Below are positions 1-59,032 of a DNA stretch of 64,000 nucleotides, piece after piece. The notes below the pieces were generated by a model. It had not been told where the DNA came from. It saw only the letters and a program-made list of their open reading frames with translations, and made no database searches. Made by a program: the position numbers and the translations under genes. Position 1 is the first letter of the stretch, and every line of letters starts with the position of its first letter. The DNA comes from Flavobacterium psychroterrae (GTDB lineage: Bacteria > Bacteroidota > Bacteroidia > Flavobacteriales > Flavobacteriaceae), in assembly GCF_018380615.1 (NCBI RefSeq), contig NZ_JAGYVZ010000006.1, positions 62,001 to 126,000 on the forward strand. Reading direction: 5' to 3'.

Positions 1-147
1 ATGTCGAACATGAATCCATTTTATTTTTCCGTTTCTGCGTATCGCATCATTAAAATGATTTAAACTATCACCGGTAACGGCATAAACACGTTTTACTCCA
101 GCCTCAACTAACATGTCGACTAATTGTTCTGCAACTATTTTACTCAT
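1..147 (-). CDS. Thiamine pyrophosphate-dependent enzyme, PoxB-like (5' part only)
   Basis: Forty-nine N-terminal residues are visible, beginning MSKIVAEQLVDMLVEAG and continuing VYAVTGDSLN; the gene runs off the left edge. This is the opening of the PYR domain of the pyruvate oxidase / acetolactate synthase family, and the V-Y-A-V-T-G-D-S-L-N stretch is typical of pyruvate dehydrogenase (quinone)-like proteins. In that family the enzyme decarboxylates pyruvate, often passing electrons to quinone. The catalytic Glu, the FAD-binding middle domain and the TPP domain are outside the window, so the substrate is not fixed. The ATG is at 145-147. The call rests on recognition of the N-terminus only. 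Confidence 0.7.
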   Translation of the reverse strand, partial: MSKIVAEQLVDMLVEAGVKRVYAVTGDSLNHFNDAIRRNGKIKWIHVRH

Positions 148-52668: not shown

Positions 52669-52686
52669 AAAGATAAGTTTGTCTTT
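52669..52686. promoter_or_regulatory. NsrR-like operator overlapping the rrf2 promoter
   Basis: AAAGATAAGTTTGTCTTT, an imperfect palindrome (14 of 18 bases symmetrical) that covers the -33 TTG. It matches the perfect site at 53773-53790 and the site at 58830-58847. Confidence 0.7.
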
Positions 52687-52709
52687 TAATATAGATTTAA
52701 ATATCTTTG
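52679..52709 (+). promoter_or_regulatory. Promoter of the rrf2-azurin operon
   Basis: TTG (52679-52681), 20 bases, TATCTTTG (52702-52709); exact consensus, 22 bases before the ATG. Confidence 0.72.
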
Positions 52710-52731
52710 TATTAAATCAACAAATTTATCT

Positions 52732-53181
52732 ATGTTTTCAAAAGCTTGTGAATACGGCATTAGGGCATCAATATTTATTGCGACTAAATCATCTGAAGGA
52801 ATCAGGGTAGGAATAAAAGATGTCGCGAAAGAAATTGATTCGCCCGAACCTTTCACAGCCAAAATAATGCAGATTCTAACTAAAAGCGGAATTATAGAAT
52901 CGGCAAAAGGAGTAGGAGGAGGATTTGAAGTTTCTGCAAATGCTGTAAAATCAATAAAACTCATTCAGATTGTTGATGCTATTGATGGAGACACTATATA
53001 TAAAGGATGTGGAATTGGGTTGAAAGAATGTTCAGAATTAAAACCATGCCCTGTACATAATGAGTTTAAAAAAGTGCGACAACTACTTTTAGAAATGCTT
53101 ACAAATACCACATTAGAACAATTAGCATCCGGAGTTTCAACCGGTGATTTTTTTCTTAAAATTAATGACAGCAAAATATAA
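52732..53181 (+). CDS. Rrf2 family transcriptional regulator, NsrR-like
   Basis: A 149-residue regulator with an N-terminal winged helix (SKACEYGIRASIFIATKS, then VGIKDVAKEIDSPEPFTAKI) and three cysteines Cys93, Cys100 and Cys106 in YKGCGIGLKECSELKPCPVH, placed like the Fe-S cluster ligands of NsrR. NsrR loses DNA binding when nitric oxide attacks the cluster. The genes around it (azurin, Fe-S repair, nitrite reductase) and the shared palindromes fit a nitric oxide sensor that represses them. It probably regulates itself, since a site overlaps its promoter. Confidence 0.88.
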   Translation: MFSKACEYGIRASIFIATKSSEGIRVGIKDVAKEIDSPEPFTAKIMQILTKSGIIESAKGVGGGFEVSANAVKSIKLIQIVDAIDGDTIYKGCGIGLKECSELKPCPVHNEFKKVRQLLLEMLTNTTLEQLASGVSTGDFFLKINDSKI

Positions 53182-53202
53182 TATAATTTTAAATACATAG
53201 AA

Positions 53203-53721
53203 ATGAATAAAAAAGTCAAGATTTCGATTGTGATGCTAATGGGATTTTTAGCAATTACATCTTGTGGAAAAAAAGAAGTTTCAGCAACAGAGCAACCAAC
53301 TGAAGTAAATGAAACAACATCTGATGAAGGAGTAAAACCGGCAGTAAGCAATGTTTTAGTTATTGAAGGGAATGATCAAATGCAGTTTAGTACAAATGAA
53401 TTAAGGGCTCAGGCTGGAAAACCAATCACTTTAACTTTAAAACATGTTGGTAAAATACCTAAAGAAGCAATGGGACATAACCTTGTTATTTTACAGGAAG
53501 GAACAGATGAAGCTGCTTTTGCATCTAAAGCAATTGCTGCCAGCGACACTGATTATATCCCGGCTTCAGAAAAAAGTTCGATTATTGCGCATACCAAATT
53601 ACTTGGCGGAGGAGAAGAAGATACAATTGAATTTACTATAGATAAAAAAGGAACTTATAACTTTTTATGTACTTTTCCAGGTCATGTTTCTATGATGAAA
53701 GGTGTTTTAATTGTGGAATAA
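53203..53721 (+). CDS. Azurin-like blue copper lipoprotein
   Basis: A 172-residue lipoprotein (lipobox LAITSCGKKE, Cys21) with an Ala/Thr/Glu linker and a cupredoxin domain. The type 1 copper ligands are His92 (MGHNLVIL), Cys156 and His161 (FLCTFPGHVSMMKG) and a Met at 164 or 165, as in azurins. Azurins carry electrons in the periplasm to copper nitrite reductases; a NirK lies 3.6 kb away in the same locus. It follows the regulator by 21 bases and ends at a terminator. Confidence 0.92.
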   Translation: MNKKVKISIVMLMGFLAITSCGKKEVSATEQPTEVNETTSDEGVKPAVSNVLVIEGNDQMQFSTNELRAQAGKPITLTLKHVGKIPKEAMGHNLVILQEGTDEAAFASKAIAASDTDYIPASEKSSIIAHTKLLGGGEEDTIEFTIDKKGTYNFLCTFPGHVSMMKGVLIVE

Positions 53722-53726
53722 ATAAC

Positions 53727-53760
53727 AAACTCTAACGCTATTATGGCTTTAGAGTTTTTT
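53727..53760 (+). terminator. Terminator of the rrf2-azurin operon
   Basis: AAACTCTAA (53727-53735) and TTAGAGTTT (53749-53757) pair, followed by T. Confidence 0.85.
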
Positions 53761-53768
53761 AACAAACT

Positions 53769-53794
53769 AATAAAAGATAAATTTATCTTTTATT
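53769..53794. promoter_or_regulatory. Perfect NsrR-like operator before the Fe-S repair gene
   Basis: A 26-bp perfect palindrome with core AAAGATAAATTTATCTTT (53773-53790), 35 bases before the ATG of the repair gene. It is the best-conserved of three related sites in the locus. The flank has no clear TTG/TAnnTTTG pair. Confidence 0.78.
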
Positions 53795-53828
53795 TTAAAA
53801 TTGAGTATTAATTAATTATAATAAAAAA

Positions 53829-54551
53829 ATGGAAGATTTAAAAAATAAAACAATTGGTTCATTTGTAGCTCAGGATTTTAGAACAGCAGCAGTTTTTACA
53901 AAATATCAAATCGATTTTTGCTGTAAAGGAAACAGAACGGTTAATGAGGTTTGCGAAAATCAGAATATTGATGCAAATGTATTATTGCAAAAAGTTTATG
54001 ATATTTTAGAATCTGAAGATGGTAATACGATTGATTTTAATTCCTGGCCACTAGATTTACTGGCGGATTACATAGAGAAAACGCATCACCGTTATGTCGA
54101 AGATAAATCGACCGTTTTAATACAGTTTTTAGATAAGCTTTGTAAAGTCCATGGCGCTGCTCATCCGGAATTGTTTAAGATAAATGAATTGTTTACGGAA
54201 TGTGCGGGTGAATTGTCACAACACATGAAAAAAGAAGAATTAATGCTGTTCCCTTTCATTAAAAGAATGGTGAAAACCAAAGAGTCTAATGGTGTTTTGA
54301 CTCCGCCATCTTTTGGGACCGTATCTAATCCAATTGCGATGATGATGCAGGAACATAATAATGAAGGAGAAAGATTCAACGAAATAGCTGTTCTTACCAA
54401 TAATTATACAGCACCAAGTGATGGATGTACAACTTATAAAGTAACATTTGCAATGCTAAAAGAATTTGAACAGGATTTGCATAAACATATTCATTTAGAA
54501 AATAATATCTTGTTTAATAAGGCAGTAATTCTGGAGGAAGAGTTTGCATAA
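53829..54551 (+). CDS. Iron-sulfur cluster repair di-iron protein (RIC/ScdA/YtfE family)
   Basis: A 240-residue cytoplasmic protein that repairs Fe-S clusters damaged by nitric oxide or oxidants. The N-terminal ScdA domain carries IDFCCKGNRTVNEVC (Cys31, Cys32), followed by a hemerythrin-like helical bundle with His ligands at HHRY (about 79-80), KVHGAAHPE, HMKKEELMLFPFI, MQEHNNEGERF and HKHIHLENNILF. All expected His/Glu are present. The gene sits behind a perfect palindrome shared with the regulator and nirK. Confidence 0.93.
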   Translation: MEDLKNKTIGSFVAQDFRTAAVFTKYQIDFCCKGNRTVNEVCENQNIDANVLLQKVYDILESEDGNTIDFNSWPLDLLADYIEKTHHRYVEDKSTVLIQFLDKLCKVHGAAHPELFKINELFTECAGELSQHMKKEELMLFPFIKRMVKTKESNGVLTPPSFGTVSNPIAMMMQEHNNEGERFNEIAVLTNNYTAPSDGCTTYKVTFAMLKEFEQDLHKHIHLENNILFNKAVILEEEFA

Positions 54552-54580
54552 GCTGAGAAACAAAATGAATATTTGAAAAG

Positions 54581-54627
54581 AAAATGTGCCTATATATCAT
54601 TAAAATAATGATATATAGGCGCATTTT
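54581..54627 (+). terminator. Long-stem terminator of the repair gene
   Basis: 21-bp stem, AATGTGCCTATATATCATT inside 54581-54601 pairing with 54607-54627 with one G-U, followed by T6. Confidence 0.92.
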
Positions 54628-54663
54628 TTATTACAGTAAATAAATTATTTTAAGCTGATAAAA

Positions 54664-55905
54664 ATGAAATTGTCATCTCAAATGAATTCGCAAAAAAGTT
54701 GGATTGTATGTTGTTTTCTTAATTTTTTGATAGCCTCAATTATGGGTTTGTTGATGCGGTATATGCACTTATTTCCTTTAAATTTAAACTACAGTTTTAT
54801 ACTTCATGCACATTCCCATATTGCCATGTTGGGATGGGCATATTTGATGATTTATGTTTTAATTGTTCGTTTTTTTATTCCGAAAGTAAAAAGAGAAAAA
54901 CCATTTTATAACAGACTATTCTGGTTGACCGAATTTTCTGTTGTAGGTATGATGATTGCTTTTCCTATCCAGGGATATGCTTTGTTTTCAATCGTGTTTT
55001 CTACAATGCATATTATATTGAGTTATGTTTTTTGCCTGAGAATTTGGAGGGATTCTTCAGAGGAAAAAACAGAAGCACAAAAACTTTTATTTGTTGGGAT
55101 TTCATGTATGGTTTTTTCCACTTTTGGAGTTTGGTGTCTGGGTCCGGCATTAAATATGTTGGGGAAACAAAGTCCTTTTTATCAAATTGCAATTCAGTTT
55201 TTCCTGCATTTTCAATTTAACGGATGGTTTTTATTTGCAGTTTTGGCTTTGTTTCTAAAACAATTTGAGGGCAAAATTGATAAAAGGGATTTTAAAATAT
55301 TTTTCACCTTACTTATTACAGCAACACTTTTAACATTTGCATTTCCTGGAAGTTGGTATTTAAAAAATGGTCTGCTAAGTTGGATGAATGCTTTTGGAGT
55401 AATTTTACAAATGATTGCTTTTGTTTATTGCTGCAAAATGTTAAAACCTCAAATTAGTATTTTTAAATGTAATCTTGATATTCCCGCAAAAGCAGTTTAT
55501 ACATTAGCAATTTGCTCGTTATTTTTCAAAATAGCAATTCAATTATTAGTTTTAATTCCCGATTTAAACGAGGTTTCGCACCAGATTAGAAATCTTATAA
55601 TTGGATTTATTCATTTAACGACGCTTGGGATTATTACTGGATTTTTATTTGGGATCTTGATTCAGAATAACCTGATTTCAGGAAAATCTTCTTTTGTTCG
55701 ATTGGGAATAAAGTCTTTTATTTTAGGATATGTAATGACAGAATTTTTATTATTGCTACAGGGGATTTTCTTTTATTTTGAAAAAGGAATGATTTCCTAT
55801 TATTATTATGAAAGCATTTTTCTAATGAGTATTTTTATTATTACAGGGCTAATTTTAATTCTATTGTCACTTTTTAAAATAAAAAAACAAGGGTTAATTA
55901 ATTAA
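54664..55905 (+). CDS. Polytopic membrane protein with HAHSH motif, heme-copper oxidase subunit I-like
   Basis: A 413-residue protein with about 12 membrane helices. Helix 2 begins with ILHAHSHIAMLGWAYLM (residues about 45-61), and a second conserved-looking motif FFLHFQFNGWFLF is near residue 190. His residues at helix starts and the Gly-Trp after the first motif recall subunit I of heme-copper oxidases and NorB, but the full HxxxH copper pattern is not seen. It lies between the Fe-S repair gene and the nirK operon, so a nitric oxide or electron-transfer role is likely; it may be the missing NO-handling protein. Family not certain. Confidence 0.6.
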   Translation: MKLSSQMNSQKSWIVCCFLNFLIASIMGLLMRYMHLFPLNLNYSFILHAHSHIAMLGWAYLMIYVLIVRFFIPKVKREKPFYNRLFWLTEFSVVGMMIAFPIQGYALFSIVFSTMHIILSYVFCLRIWRDSSEEKTEAQKLLFVGISCMVFSTFGVWCLGPALNMLGKQSPFYQIAIQFFLHFQFNGWFLFAVLALFLKQFEGKIDKRDFKIFFTLLITATLLTFAFPGSWYLKNGLLSWMNAFGVILQMIAFVYCCKMLKPQISIFKCNLDIPAKAVYTLAICSLFFKIAIQLLVLIPDLNEVSHQIRNLIIGFIHLTTLGIITGFLFGILIQNNLISGKSSFVRLGIKSFILGYVMTEFLLLLQGIFFYFEKGMISYYYYESIFLMSIFIITGLILILLSLFKIKKQGLIN

Positions 55906-55936
55906 AATCCCCCCTGTTTTTTACAAATGAATTAAC

Positions 55937-56539
55937 CTATTTAATTTTATCTGCTTCCAGATTTATTCTGTCCACTGTTTTATCATTGTTTACGCCTAAA
56001 CCTTCTTGTTGGTAAATTAATTCGCCATCAGGATTAAAAACACTTATAATATTAGAATGTGAAAAATCCATAGGAGATATTTTTTTGTAATTAACGGCAA
56101 GAACCGCAGCAAATTCACGAGTATTTTCTTCGGTAGAACGCAAGAAGATCCACGAATTGCCTTCCATTTTATTTGTAATAGAAAAAGCTTTTAGTTTGTC
56201 CGGAGTATCTGTTTCGGGATCAATACTTACCAAAATAAGCTTTACATTTTTCTTAGTTTTTTCATTCAATCGGGATTCTATATTTCTCATATCTGCGACT
56301 AATTTTGGGCAAGCCGCTTTGCAAGTTGTATAAATCATCACCATAACCAGAACATTCCCTTTCAGGCTTTTTAGTTCAATACCTTTTCCGTCTTGATTCG
56401 TCCATTTTGAGGGTAAATTGTAAATCGATAAATCGGTGATTGGTTTGTTTATAGTATTTATTACAGTTTTATCTTTGGAATCTTTACAACTTTGAAGACT
56501 GAATATTAGAATCAAAATTGGAACTATTATTTTTTTCAT
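55937..56539 (-). CDS. SCO1/SenC family copper-delivery lipoprotein
   Basis: A 200-residue lipoprotein (lipobox LIFSLQSCKDS) with a thioredoxin-like fold. The copper motif CxxxC appears as TTCKAACPKLV (Cys73, Cys77 type spacing) and the distal His in SPMDFSHSNIISV. SCO proteins bring copper to periplasmic copper enzymes such as oxidases and nitrite or nitrous oxide reductases. As last gene of the nirK operon (17 bases after the NirV-like gene) it probably serves NirK maturation. Confidence 0.9.
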   Translation of the reverse strand: MKKIIVPILILIFSLQSCKDSKDKTVINTINKPITDLSIYNLPSKWTNQDGKGIELKSLKGNVLVMVMIYTTCKAACPKLVADMRNIESRLNEKTKKNVKLILVSIDPETDTPDKLKAFSITNKMEGNSWIFLRSTEENTREFAAVLAVNYKKISPMDFSHSNIISVFNPDGELIYQQEGLGVNNDKTVDRINLEADKIK

Positions 56540-56556
56540 TTTCTAAGAATTTAAAA

Positions 56557-57327
56557 TTATTGACGTGTTGTTCTTGCGCATCTAAAACCTAAATTACGGG
56601 TTGAATATTGCGCTTTTAAGCTTCCTCTAAACGCGTACCGCATAAAAGCAGCATAATCCATGAGATCAGTTGCATTTACCGATGCGCCGCCGCAAAAAAG
56701 GTTTTTGTCTTCACTTTTATCTTTTCGGGATTCTCCGGATAAAAATATACTATTAAAGTCTTCTGTCCATTCCCATACCAATCCGTGCATGTCGTAAACT
56801 CCCCAATAGTTTTTGAATGTCTTGCCTATTGGATTTTCATACGTTTTTGATTTTTCATACCACGATAAAATGTATTTATTAAATTCGGTTTTAGTTCTGG
56901 CATCGATTCTTTTTTTATCCGCCATAGCAACATATTCCCATTCATCCATTGTAGGTAATCGTTTTCCCTGACATTCACAATATTTTTTGGCTGCAAACCA
57001 TGAAACATTTGTTACTGGGGATTTTGGATTATCATTTCCAAAATCAAAATCAGATTTCCAATAGAACAGATAACTTTCATCGGCAAAAAGCGCTTTAATT
57101 TTAGACTTACTATAACTTGTGTTTTTTTTAATAAAAATCAAAAACTCACTATTAGTAATAGGGTAAACATCTAGAAAAAAGGGTTTTACAACGACAGGAT
57201 TTTTTAATGTAGCTCCATAAAGAGGGACAAAAGAGCCTTCTTTTATCAGAACCATTTTCGATTCTTGCGCTCTTATCATTCCTGTAAAAGCGAAGAAAAG
57301 AAGAATTTTAAAAATGCGTTTGTGCAT
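56557..57327 (-). CDS. NirV-like, SUMF1/formylglycine-generating enzyme family protein
   Basis: A 256-residue exported protein (signal to about residue 20, FFAFTGMIRAQ) of the SUMF1 fold: VYPITNSEFLIFIKKNT, VTNVSWFAAKKYCECQGKRL, PTMDEWEYVAMAD, DMHGLVWEWTEDF and the end RNLGFRCAR. In other denitrifiers a protein of this fold, NirV, is encoded beside nirK; its role there is unknown. The Cys pair needed for formylglycine formation is not obvious. It is between nirK (10 bases) and the SCO gene (17 bases). Confidence 0.85.
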   Translation of the reverse strand: MHKRIFKILLFFAFTGMIRAQESKMVLIKEGSFVPLYGATLKNPVVVKPFFLDVYPITNSEFLIFIKKNTSYSKSKIKALFADESYLFYWKSDFDFGNDNPKSPVTNVSWFAAKKYCECQGKRLPTMDEWEYVAMADKKRIDARTKTEFNKYILSWYEKSKTYENPIGKTFKNYWGVYDMHGLVWEWTEDFNSIFLSGESRKDKSEDKNLFCGGASVNATDLMDYAAFMRYAFRGSLKAQYSTRNLGFRCARTTRQ

Positions 57328-57337
57328 AATTTTGTTT

Positions 57338-58786
57338 TTATCTTAAGGCTTTTACCATTTCCGGAGTTACCTCAGTTTTATTATTTCCCCAGCTGTTATA
57401 TATATAGGTCATAACATTCGCTATTTCATCATCAGATAAATTCTGGCTAGGCATAATATTATTGTATTTAATGCCATTTACCAGTACTTCACCGCTTAAG
57501 CCGTGTAAAATTGTTTTAATCGCTCGTTTTGAATCGGCATTTAAATAATCAGATTTTGCAAGAGGAGGGAAAGCGTTTGGTATTCCCTGACCTTCAGATT
57601 GATGACAGGCAAAACAGGTGGTGCTAAAAATTTCTTTTCCAATTTTAACCCTTTCAGCAACTGTTCTTTTTGGGTTTACCGTTTTTGCAGTTGCAGTAAT
57701 TGGCATTTTCTGGATCGTTCCGCCTTCGGGTAAATAAATACCTTCCTGAATAGTTCCTGAATATATCTTTTTATTTTCTGCACCTTCAACTTTTAATATT
57801 CCTAATGCACCTTTATTAAATGCTCTAAAAATAGAATGGTCAACAATGATGAAATTTCCCGGAGTTTCTACTTTAAAATCCACAATTGCAGAACCTCCGG
57901 CAGGAATTAACGTAGTCTGAACATTTTTATTGATAAGATTTCCTCCTTCAACATGTACATTATCGAATATTTCGCCAATAACGTGAAAAGAAGAGACTAA
58001 GTTTGGACCGCCATTTCCAACAAATAACCTTACAGTTTCTCCCACTTTTGCGGTAAGTTCATTTCCGTTTGTCATTGAACCAACTTTTCCGTTAAATACA
58101 ACATAATCAGGCGTTTCTTTCACCGCTTTATTCATATCAAAAGGCTGAAGACCTTTTTCTCCGTACTCACCCTGAGTATAAAAATCACCCTGCATAACGT
58201 AATATTCCTTGTCAACCGGAGGCAATCCACCTTCTGGTTCAACCAGAATTAAACCATACATTCCGTTAGCAATATGCATTCCCACAGGAGCTGTAGCGCA
58301 GTGATAAACATATAATCCTGGATTTATAACCTTAAAACTAAACACTTTTTCATGACCTGGCGCAACGAGTGACGATGTTGCTCCACCACCGGGACCGGTC
58401 ACAGCGTGCAAATCAATATTATGCGGTAATTTGTTATCAGGATGGTTTTTAAGGTGAAATTCGACTTCATCACCTACGCGGGTTCTTATAAAACTTCCCG
58501 GAACAGATCCGCCAAATGTCCAATACATATATTTTACCCCATCGGTCATTGTTCCTTCTTGTTCCTTAATTTCCATGTTTACTTTAAGTTTCATGGCGGA
58601 TCTTTTGCCAATAGGTTTAGGAACAAGTGGAGGAGCCGTAAGTTCGGCTTCCATTTCTCCATTTGTCACAATGTCACTGTAATGAGTTGATTGTTGTTCT
58701 TTTTTACATGCTGCAAAAAGTAGTGTTGCAAAGAATAAGCAAACAAGTGTTTTCATTTTTATTGATTTGCTAAATTTCATTTTCAT
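57338..58786 (-). CDS. nirK: Copper nitrite reductase fused to cytochrome c, lipoprotein
   Basis: Reduces nitrite to nitric oxide outside the cytoplasm. The 482-residue protein has a lipobox ([11 protein letters not shown], Cys27) and two cupredoxin domains. Type 1 copper ligands are His122, Cys163, His171 and Met176; type 2 ligands are His127, His162 and His317; the catalytic Asp125 and His268 are present. A C-terminal cytochrome c domain from about residue 375 has TCFACHQ (Cys391, Cys394, His395) and a candidate axial Met in NNIMPSQNL. An ATG at 58756 would give a more usual signal peptide. First gene of nirK-nirV-sco, with a palindromic operator 42 bases upstream. Confidence 0.95.
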
Positions 58787-58827
58787 AATAAATTGGTTTT
58801 ATTTTAGTTTTAAATCTGAAGTAAATT

Positions 58828-58849
58828 TAAAAGACTAAATTGTCTTTTA
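58828..58849. promoter_or_regulatory. NsrR-like operator before nirK
   Basis: 22-bp palindrome with arms TAAAAGAC and GTCTTTTA around TAAATT; core AAAGACTAAATTGTCTTT (58830-58847). It shares AAAGA and TCTTT at the same spacing with the sites at 52669 and 53773. Confidence 0.75.
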
Positions 58850-59032
58850 TTATGATAAAAGTCATATAAAGCTTATAAATTACGGACAAAATTAAACTTG
58901 TTCCGGTTATTTGCGTAAGTTTAATCTCTCAAATTAGCTTATTTTTTCATACATTTTTATGTGGGATAATTGATATTCAGAATATTTTTCAATAAAAATA
59001 AATGGCTAACTCTATTTTAGAATAATAATCAT

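Follow-up and report, generated by a model that had tools for sequence, protein, structure and literature searches.

The window analysed here is a 64,000-nucleotide (nt) stretch of the 5.74-Mb genome of Flavobacterium psychroterrae (G000:C80:62001-126000), in which one palindrome recurs before rrf2, RIC and nirK. On the forward strand, rrf2, encoding an Rrf2-family regulator, and an azurin gene are followed by RIC, encoding an iron-sulfur (Fe-S) repair protein, and by a gene for a membrane protein of 413 amino acids (aa); the genes for SCO1, a formylglycine-generating-enzyme-like protein (SUMF1) and the copper nitrite reductase NirK then lie on the reverse strand (Table 1). The azurin gene is probably cotranscribed with rrf2, and its product is likely the electron donor to NirK. 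We consider it probable that the Rrf2 protein uses the palindrome as its operator and that this site defines a nitrogen-oxide regulon relieved by nitric oxide (NO).

Table 1. Operators, promoter elements and genes of the rrf2-nirK region, in window coordinates
Feature	Position	Strand	Remarks
Operator 1 (autoregulatory, predicted), AAAGATAAGTTTGTCTTT	52669..52686		before rrf2; matrix score 26.2
-7 element (TAnnTTTG type) of the rrf2 promoter, TATCTTTG	52702..52709	+	offset kept in relatives
rrf2, Rrf2-family regulator, 149 aa	52732..53181	+	PF02082, 6e-23
Azurin-type blue copper lipoprotein	53203..53721	+	TIGR02695, 113 bits, exceeds cut-off
Short hairpin and T run 3' of azurin	53730..53760	+	seen by eye
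Operator 2, AATAAAAGATAAATTTATCTTTTATT, perfect 26-bp palindrome	53769..53794		before RIC; matrix score 28.3
RIC, ScdA-YtfE family di-iron iron-sulfur repair protein	53829..54551	+	TIGR03652, 234 bits, cut-off 204.7
413-aa hydrophobic protein	54664..55905	+	frequently retained behind RIC in Flavobacteriaceae
SCO1/SenC copper chaperone, nirK operon gene 3	55937..56539	-	PF02630, 1.8e-19
Formylglycine-generating-enzyme-like protein (SUMF1), nirK operon gene 2	56557..57327	-	PF03781, 2.9e-37
nirK, copper nitrite reductase with fused C-terminal cytochrome c	57338..58786	-	TIGR02376, 347 bits (exceeds cut-off), and PF00034
-7-like element of nirK, TAAATTTA	58822..58829	-	abuts operator 3; one base off TAnnTTTG
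Operator 3, TAAAAGACTAAATTGTCTTTTA, arms perfect, centre imperfect	58828..58849		before nirK; matrix score 22.9
CRP/FNR-type box TGA-N6-TCA, ATGACTTTTATCAT on the nirK strand	58853..58864	-	directly upstream of operator 3

A preliminary description of this DNA had reported the three palindromes, a constant spacing of their arms and a perfect 26-bp symmetry before the Fe-S repair gene, and all of this was borne out: the arms are spaced GA-N8-TC in every case, and the consensus is a core GAY-AAATTT-RTC inside wAAAGAY...RTCTTTw. In A+T-rich DNA, a loose consensus occurs in chance numbers (AAAGANAANNTTNTCTTT with up to 3 mismatches has 36 matches in the window vs 38 expected; loose matches in the whole genome number 376 and 407 vs 451 for a reversed control). 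At 0-1 mismatch AAAGANAANNTTNTCTTT picks out the three sites and no others in the window, and AAAGANNANNTNNTCTTT has 6 copies genome-wide, 3 of them inside the window. We therefore built a symmetric matrix of 22 positions from other genomes, using the best site 38-50 nt upstream of the rrf2 start in 80 other loci, which were the best 80 of at least 580 confirmed matches. The window's rrf2 site was represented in this training set through its orthologues only; neither the RIC nor the nirK site contributed to it. When the window was scanned, the three sites ranked 1-3 (28.3, 26.2 and 22.9), and the next best match scored 10.2. A scan of every fourth locus gave 50 sites of at least 14, vs a mean of 1.9 for 50 column-permuted matrices.

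In all 80 relatives, the palindrome stands 40-47 nt upstream of the rrf2 start; in these sites G4, A5, T14 and C15 are invariant and the centre is mostly of the AAATTT type; scored against the matrix made from them, 79 of these sites reach 14, and the lowest has 9.6. The earlier suggestion of one shared, lineage-specific operator unlike the proteobacterial NsrR site is supported. A TAnnTTTG element stands 15 bases 3' of the rrf2 operator in 57 of 78 relatives, and 14-18 bases 3' in 72 of 78. Together with a TTTG at -33, this is presumably the promoter type of the flavobacterial literature. By eye, operator 1 covers a TTTG of the -33 type at 52678-52681, 20 bp before TATCTTTG, as the preliminary description had proposed, and a protein bound there would thus cover the -33 element. 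A scan for sigma-70 elements gave matches at chance level only.

The content of the regulon was evaluated by searching with the matrix within 350 nt before each gene of the 80 rrf2-bearing loci. Sites scoring at least 10 preceded nirK in 52 of 52 cases (48 of them at least 14) and norB in 31 of 32 (28 at least 14); the lone norB lacking one (L106) does have a site of 14.4, hidden by the predicted start. This norB encodes a quinol-type NO reductase, with Pfam NorB cytochrome-c-like and COX1 domains and 825.7 bits against solved structures of NO reductase subunit B. RIC carried sites of at least 10 in 42/76 cases and of at least 14 in 39/76, and among the 37 that fall short of 14, 31 sit behind norB, the exceptions being L059, L112, L117, L127, L129 and L135. 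No own site was found in these loci before azurin (0/46), the 413-aa membrane gene (0/66), SCO1 (0/52) or SUMF1 (0/54), or before the neighbouring genes glts (0/46) and p158 (0/33), and open reading frames (ORFs) unlike any window gene reached 14 in 17 of 909 cases. The genes nyn (45/46) and kbl (32/46) score too, because they share intergenic regions with rrf2 and nirK. The sites stand at operon heads, not within operons.

In the Bacteroidetes metagenome-assembled genome SZAS-4 (L117:10494-14211), the rrf2 operator heads a run of a bacterial-globin ORF (PF01152), further small genes and RIC, with neither azurin nor NorB alongside. In L125 (15952) and L136 (15973), a site of 17.2 precedes a small Cys-containing ORF of 132 aa, a 281-aa ORF and a TonB-plug protein, and lies downstream of genes resembling the nosD-, ABC ATPase- and membrane-protein-matching genes of L122; it is possible that these are copper supply genes within the regulon.

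The genome of F. psychroterrae itself was searched by consensus, the matches with three mismatches being covered for their first places only, and the matches were rescored with the matrix. Among the sites found, the top four were those of RIC (28.3), rrf2 (26.2), nirK (22.9) and narK (22.0), followed by one of 17.8, and all four serve nitrogen-oxide genes. The fourth, which the preliminary description had missed, is located outside the window (G000:C102:60253-60274), 107 nt before a gene for a NarK-family transporter (a match below the model cut-off), in an operon ordered narK-narK-membrane protein-molybdopterin reductase-Fe/S protein-Rieske protein-moeA; the best NCBIfam match of the molybdopterin reductase is NasC, also below cut-off. 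The nitrogen-oxide regulon tied to the local Rrf2 gene, as proposed earlier, is hence supported and is enlarged by a narK-nitrate-reductase operon. The narK scan covered 30 loci, from a total of 58 matching genomes: relatives of this narK (at least 78% identity) in rrf2-bearing genomes have a site within ~120 nt that scores at least 9 in 13 of 19 cases and at least 14 in 8 of 19, and a second narK type has no near site of at least 9 in 9 loci (L413 has one of 9.4 at 941 nt). The remaining candidates of the F. psychroterrae genome were not retained: L043 (17.8) is flanked by converging genes; L431 (17.4), L048 (14.7), L037 (14.5), L429 (14.2), L380 (13.1) and L433 (7.7) lie inside ORFs; and L432 (12.7) and L430 (7.6) have low scores.

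An independent sample of 199 Flavobacterium genomes, 83 of which have an rrf2 orthologue (E <= 1e-30), allowed the site and the regulator to be compared across the genus. All 64 genomes with a match to an NO reductase (the quinol-type qNor, or a weaker cNor-like match) possess rrf2, as do 67 of the 68 nirK-bearing genomes, 80 of the 94 with RIC and 38 of the 52 with nosZ. Before nirK, sites of at least 14 were present in 55/68 genomes and of at least 10 in 60/68, vs 2/760 and 3/760 random 350-nt stretches, which are mostly coding DNA. Five of the eight nirK genes without a site of at least 10 are linked to a cytochrome-type nor operon; of four such operons inspected, three carry sites of 19.7-26.8 upstream of norC, and the fourth shows scores of 12.0 and 15.6. 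The remaining misses are G364 (1.6), G293 (9.8) and G419 (8.5). Among 29 of the 30 norB loci (L179 was left out), 21 have a site at most 50 nt from the gene.

Genomes lacking rrf2 served as a natural control. We scanned 1.1-1.5 kb upstream of RIC in 30 loci and in 12 rrf2-lacking genomes, drawn from the 94 RIC genomes, and found sites of at least 9 in 21/28 cases with rrf2 vs 0/14 without it; in L288 and L297, which are among the 21, the site is that of a second rrf2 copy. For nosZ, with 50 of the 52 genomes examined (G393 and G271 were left out), sites were present in 14/36 rrf2-bearing vs 0/14 rrf2-lacking genomes. One-sided hypergeometric probabilities, calculated by hand and uncorrected for genome relatedness, were ~2e-6 for RIC and ~0.004 for nosZ. 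The preliminary description had named nor, hmp and nos as genes to look for behind the motif: nor was found there (31/32 norB) and nos partly so, and hmp was rejected as a member of the regulon on account of 27/30 loci without a site and a weak association with rrf2. The hmp loci came from 31 genomes, one of which, G422, yielded no locus; the three with a site are L331 and L333 (10.2 and 14.8), where an Rrf2 paralogue adjoins hmp, and L344 (13.0), which has no such paralogue.

Additional Rrf2 copies were observed in this sample. In L331 and L333 (genomes G323 and G306), the paralogue beside hmp is 46-47% identical, and two palindromes of the same type (9.5-14.8) lie upstream of hmp. In G278 and G341 (L288 and L297, ~610 nt before RIC), the second copy heads a qNor-RIC cluster, and its operator, TAATGGACAAATTTGTCCATTA or TAATGGACAAATTAGTCCATTA, keeps GA-N8-TC but has an altered arm, as though to prevent cross-talk between the paralogues.

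The nirK and narK promoters are composite. A CRP/FNR-type box occurs at 59 of the 60 nirK loci with a site, in 51 of them exactly 17 bases before the 18-mer, as in the window, vs 79 of 1520 random stretches (mostly coding). TAnnTTTG stands exactly at the operator end in 33/60 nirK loci, at the same offset as in the window, and 33 of 35 pairs have the box centred 29 nt upstream of TAnnTTTG. The narK promoters run from operator through box to -7 element; 12 of 21 loci have both the box (+22..24) and TAnnTTTG (+57..59), 29 nt apart in each. The distance from the box to the -7 element is thus fixed at 29 nt for both genes, with the operator on either side of the box. The composite promoter pattern at 0 mismatches occurs in the F. 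psychroterrae genome at nirK only. The RIC and norB promoters contain neither box nor -7 elements of the nirK/narK kind.

We then evaluated the regulator itself. The window protein is 94% identical to the F. bizetiae orthologue (L057), a further orthologue occurs in strain CI04 (L085), and the protein belongs to the Rrf2 family (PF02082, 81.9 bits vs a cut-off of 30). C93, C100, C106 and H109 are invariant in 44/44 aligned homologues. The predicted model (predicted local distance difference test score 87.6) has Rrf2-family or unnamed putative regulators as all of its 21 best structural matches, including CymR (Z 15.8, root-mean-square deviation 2.8, 127 residues aligned), IscR (14.5), RsrR (13.7) and NsrR (13.7), a comparison that cannot separate these four and in which absence from the match list proves nothing. 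No equivalog model was passed: the curated NsrR model PRK11014 gave 30 bits vs a cut-off of 182, IscR gave 43.6 vs 207.55, and the best equivalog-type NCBIfam scores, also below cut-off, were for suf_reg_Xantho and IscR. By BLAST, E. coli NsrR (35.8 bits) and IscR (35.4 bits) are equally distant. H109 aligns with the His after the third Cys of IscR, where E. coli NsrR has Lys; the Cys spacing is x6-x5 vs x4-x5 in E. coli NsrR, with a first gap of x5 in IscR; and E7, at least 90% conserved, aligns with Asp8 of E. coli NsrR. The NsrR crystal structure reportedly has the acidic residue at position 8 as the fourth cluster ligand. Partial text of PMC4432287 names His-107 as a ligand in IscR, not conserved in NsrR, and proposes Glu-85 as the fourth cluster ligand of NsrR.

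These features bear on what the protein senses. The strongest alternative is that it is a sensor of the IscR or RirA kind, responding to Fe-S or iron status or to oxygen, so that a shortage of clusters, or damage to them, would switch on RIC and the denitrification genes. An invariant His at the IscR ligand position, IscR structural matches no worse than those of NsrR, the ranking of the equivalog-type scores and an Fe-S repair protein among the targets are what such a sensor would lead one to expect. However, the regulon comprises an NO-producing enzyme and NO reductases, and the regulator is present in all 64 genomes with an NO reductase match; we regard IscR-like sensing as unlikely. With IscR itself the protein has the Rrf2 fold in common, and its three Cys and His align; the GAC...GTC core of the IscR type 1 site resembles GAY...RTC. 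The nitrogen-oxide targets, the first Cys gap and the rest of the operator are different.

Slightly less likely still is true orthology with proteobacterial NsrR, the sequence having merely drifted. The types of target are the same as in Neisseria and other beta-proteobacteria (nirK, norB, dnrN and narK-like genes, according to the available sections of PMC1274295), and the regulator has three Cys and an E7 that aligns with D8 of NsrR. Against this stand the family score far below the NsrR cut-off, the equal nearness of IscR, the invariant His109, the different Cys spacing, an operator unlike gATGyAT-N5-ATrCATc and the exclusion of hmp. The preliminary description had called the regulator NsrR-like, with three Cys placed like the cluster ligands of NsrR; the three Cys are indeed invariant, whereas their placement differs, and the name itself found no support. 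Since operator, Cys spacing, His109 and family scores all differ, the protein is best described, on its sequence, as an Rrf2 protein that would work like NsrR without being a member of that group, for which "NsrR" is only an analogy.

It is very improbable that the palindrome is bound by a different factor (a CRP/FNR protein, for example), with rrf2 only a passenger of denitrification clusters. A CRP/FNR-type box does adjoin the nirK and narK operators, and G250, G368 and G428 have a site and no rrf2 orthologue. However, the palindrome is GA-N8-TC rather than TGA-N6-TCA, and the two are found next to each other; the palindrome shows its greatest regularity upstream of rrf2, a place without a recurrent box (4 cases in 77, at 3 offsets); and RIC and nosZ have no site in genomes lacking rrf2. 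Chance palindromes in A+T-rich promoters, which the consensus counts alone would allow (the loose consensus at its expected number, the genome counts lower than that of the reversed pattern), are ruled out for practical purposes: the scores greatly exceed background, and the sites are conserved between genera at a fixed position.

For the Rrf2 protein encoded in the window as the ligand of the operator, the following mechanism can be proposed. In the absence of NO, the Rrf2 dimer would sit over the core promoter and repress its own rrf2-azurin operon, and it would likewise repress the nirK operon, RIC (in relatives, norB-RIC) and the narK-nitrate-reductase operon of this genome. NO from NirK would damage an Fe-S cluster whose ligands would be C93, C100, C106 and probably E7 or H109, upon which the protein would leave the DNA and the genes would be derepressed. 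nirK and narK may additionally require an activator of the CRP/FNR type; with an activator box and an operator together, these promoters would read "activator present AND repressor gone". Sites, conservation, linkage to rrf2, regulon content and promoter geometry were established directly, and binding, repression, the cluster, NO as the signal, and the activator and its identity are what we infer from them.

Several observations weigh against this Rrf2-operator model. F. psychroterrae was searched by consensus only, and in that genome the searches for NO reductase and NosZ gave zero matches; with NirK present, NO would be dealt with by Hmp, whose gene lies outside the regulon, and its damage by RIC. 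The hmp gene has no site in 27 of 30 loci, that of F. psychroterrae (C18) included, and is barely associated with the regulator (31 genomes, 18 with rrf2 and 13 without; p 0.05). Sites are found in only 14/36 rrf2-bearing genomes for nosZ and, close to narK and at 14 or more, in only 8/19. No canonical TAnnTTTG follows the RIC (0/39) or norB (0/28) operators, so repression there is proposed by analogy. G250 has a nirK site of 21.7 on a 3.4-kb contig and no rrf2 found, G368 a narK site of 15.3 and G428 (68% complete) a site of 16.2 ~1.1 kb before narK, both with no rrf2 orthologue. Finally, the presence/absence comparisons ignore lineage effects, and the random-stretch control is mostly coding DNA.

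The closest functional parallel is the control of aniA (= nirK) by NsrR and FNR in Neisseria. There, aniA is activated by FNR and repressed by NsrR, and no FNR site lies near norB, according to the accessible portion of PMC10187123. In both systems an Rrf2 repressor, here predicted, stands over copper nitrite reductase and NO reductase, with an FNR activator at nitrite reductase in Neisseria and a CRP/FNR-type box at nirK here. Unlike in Neisseria, the operator word and the Rrf2 subfamily are different, the box abuts the operator, and RIC, the regulator's own azurin operon and the narK-nitrate-reductase operon belong to the regulon. More generally, the protein shares with NsrR of gamma- and beta-proteobacteria, Bacillus and Streptomyces the Rrf2 family, the Cys triad and NO genes including dnrN/RIC and narK-like genes, and differs in its operator, in having a His after the third Cys, which E. 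coli NsrR lacks, and in leaving hmp outside. In PMC1274295 (Rodionov et al.), the NsrR consensus is gATGyAT-N5-ATrCATc, hmp is the most conserved target, the regulon extends to nirK, norB and narK-like genes in beta-proteobacteria, and the Bacteroides passages concern HcpR.

Rrf2 regulators have been found enriched on clade II nos scaffolds, mostly from Bacteroidetes and including several Flavobacteriales, and the authors considered their role difficult to predict; the excerpted text presents no operator, regulon or promoter architecture (PMC6264515). Neither Rrf2 nor NsrR is mentioned in the excerpt of a study of denitrification in F. columnare (PMC5395568), and the F. psychrophilum transcriptome paper (PMC9723704) contains none of the terms Rrf2, nitric oxide and palindrome; the portion of RegPrecise 3.0 consulted shows a collection for Bacteroidaceae and never the word Flavobacteri (PMC3840689), and a partial text mentions NsrR with nod in Cecembia (PMC13386854). 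Judged by titles and opening abstracts, the open-licence papers listed by the literature searches contained no description of an operator or regulon for flavobacterial denitrification genes.

Many flavobacteria are partial denitrifiers. As a more tentative extension of the Rrf2-operator model, for which we would give somewhat less than even chances, a separate Rrf2 subfamily may have independently taken the NsrR role in Flavobacteriaceae, with a GAY-N6-RTC operator and a hybrid cluster site in which three Cys are joined by His109, Glu7 or both; it would control nitrate reductase, NirK, NO reductase, RIC and, in part, NosZ. With the operator exactly between the CRP/FNR box and the -7 element, nirK would then be a switch for anoxia (or another activator signal) AND nitric oxide. 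Across the family of Flavobacterium, the DNA word differs from that of the known NO repressor NsrR. Flavobacteria are widespread, and given a defined operator, a named regulator gene and a fixed promoter layout, how they control NO and N2O turnover can be tested directly; the matrix can be used for regulon annotation across many genomes.

Hairpins follow azurin and RIC in the window. The one 3' of azurin, a probable terminator separating the operons of operators 1 and 2, was not listed by the terminator scanner, and a similar hairpin occurs at this position in the consensus of relatives; behind RIC, a long near-perfect hairpin terminator of 20 pairs (54582-54626) is listed on both strands. The 413-aa product behind RIC, probably a polytopic membrane protein, gave zero Pfam or NCBIfam matches and contains His-containing segments; as a guess, it is perhaps an NnrS-like or haem-copper-like NO protein.

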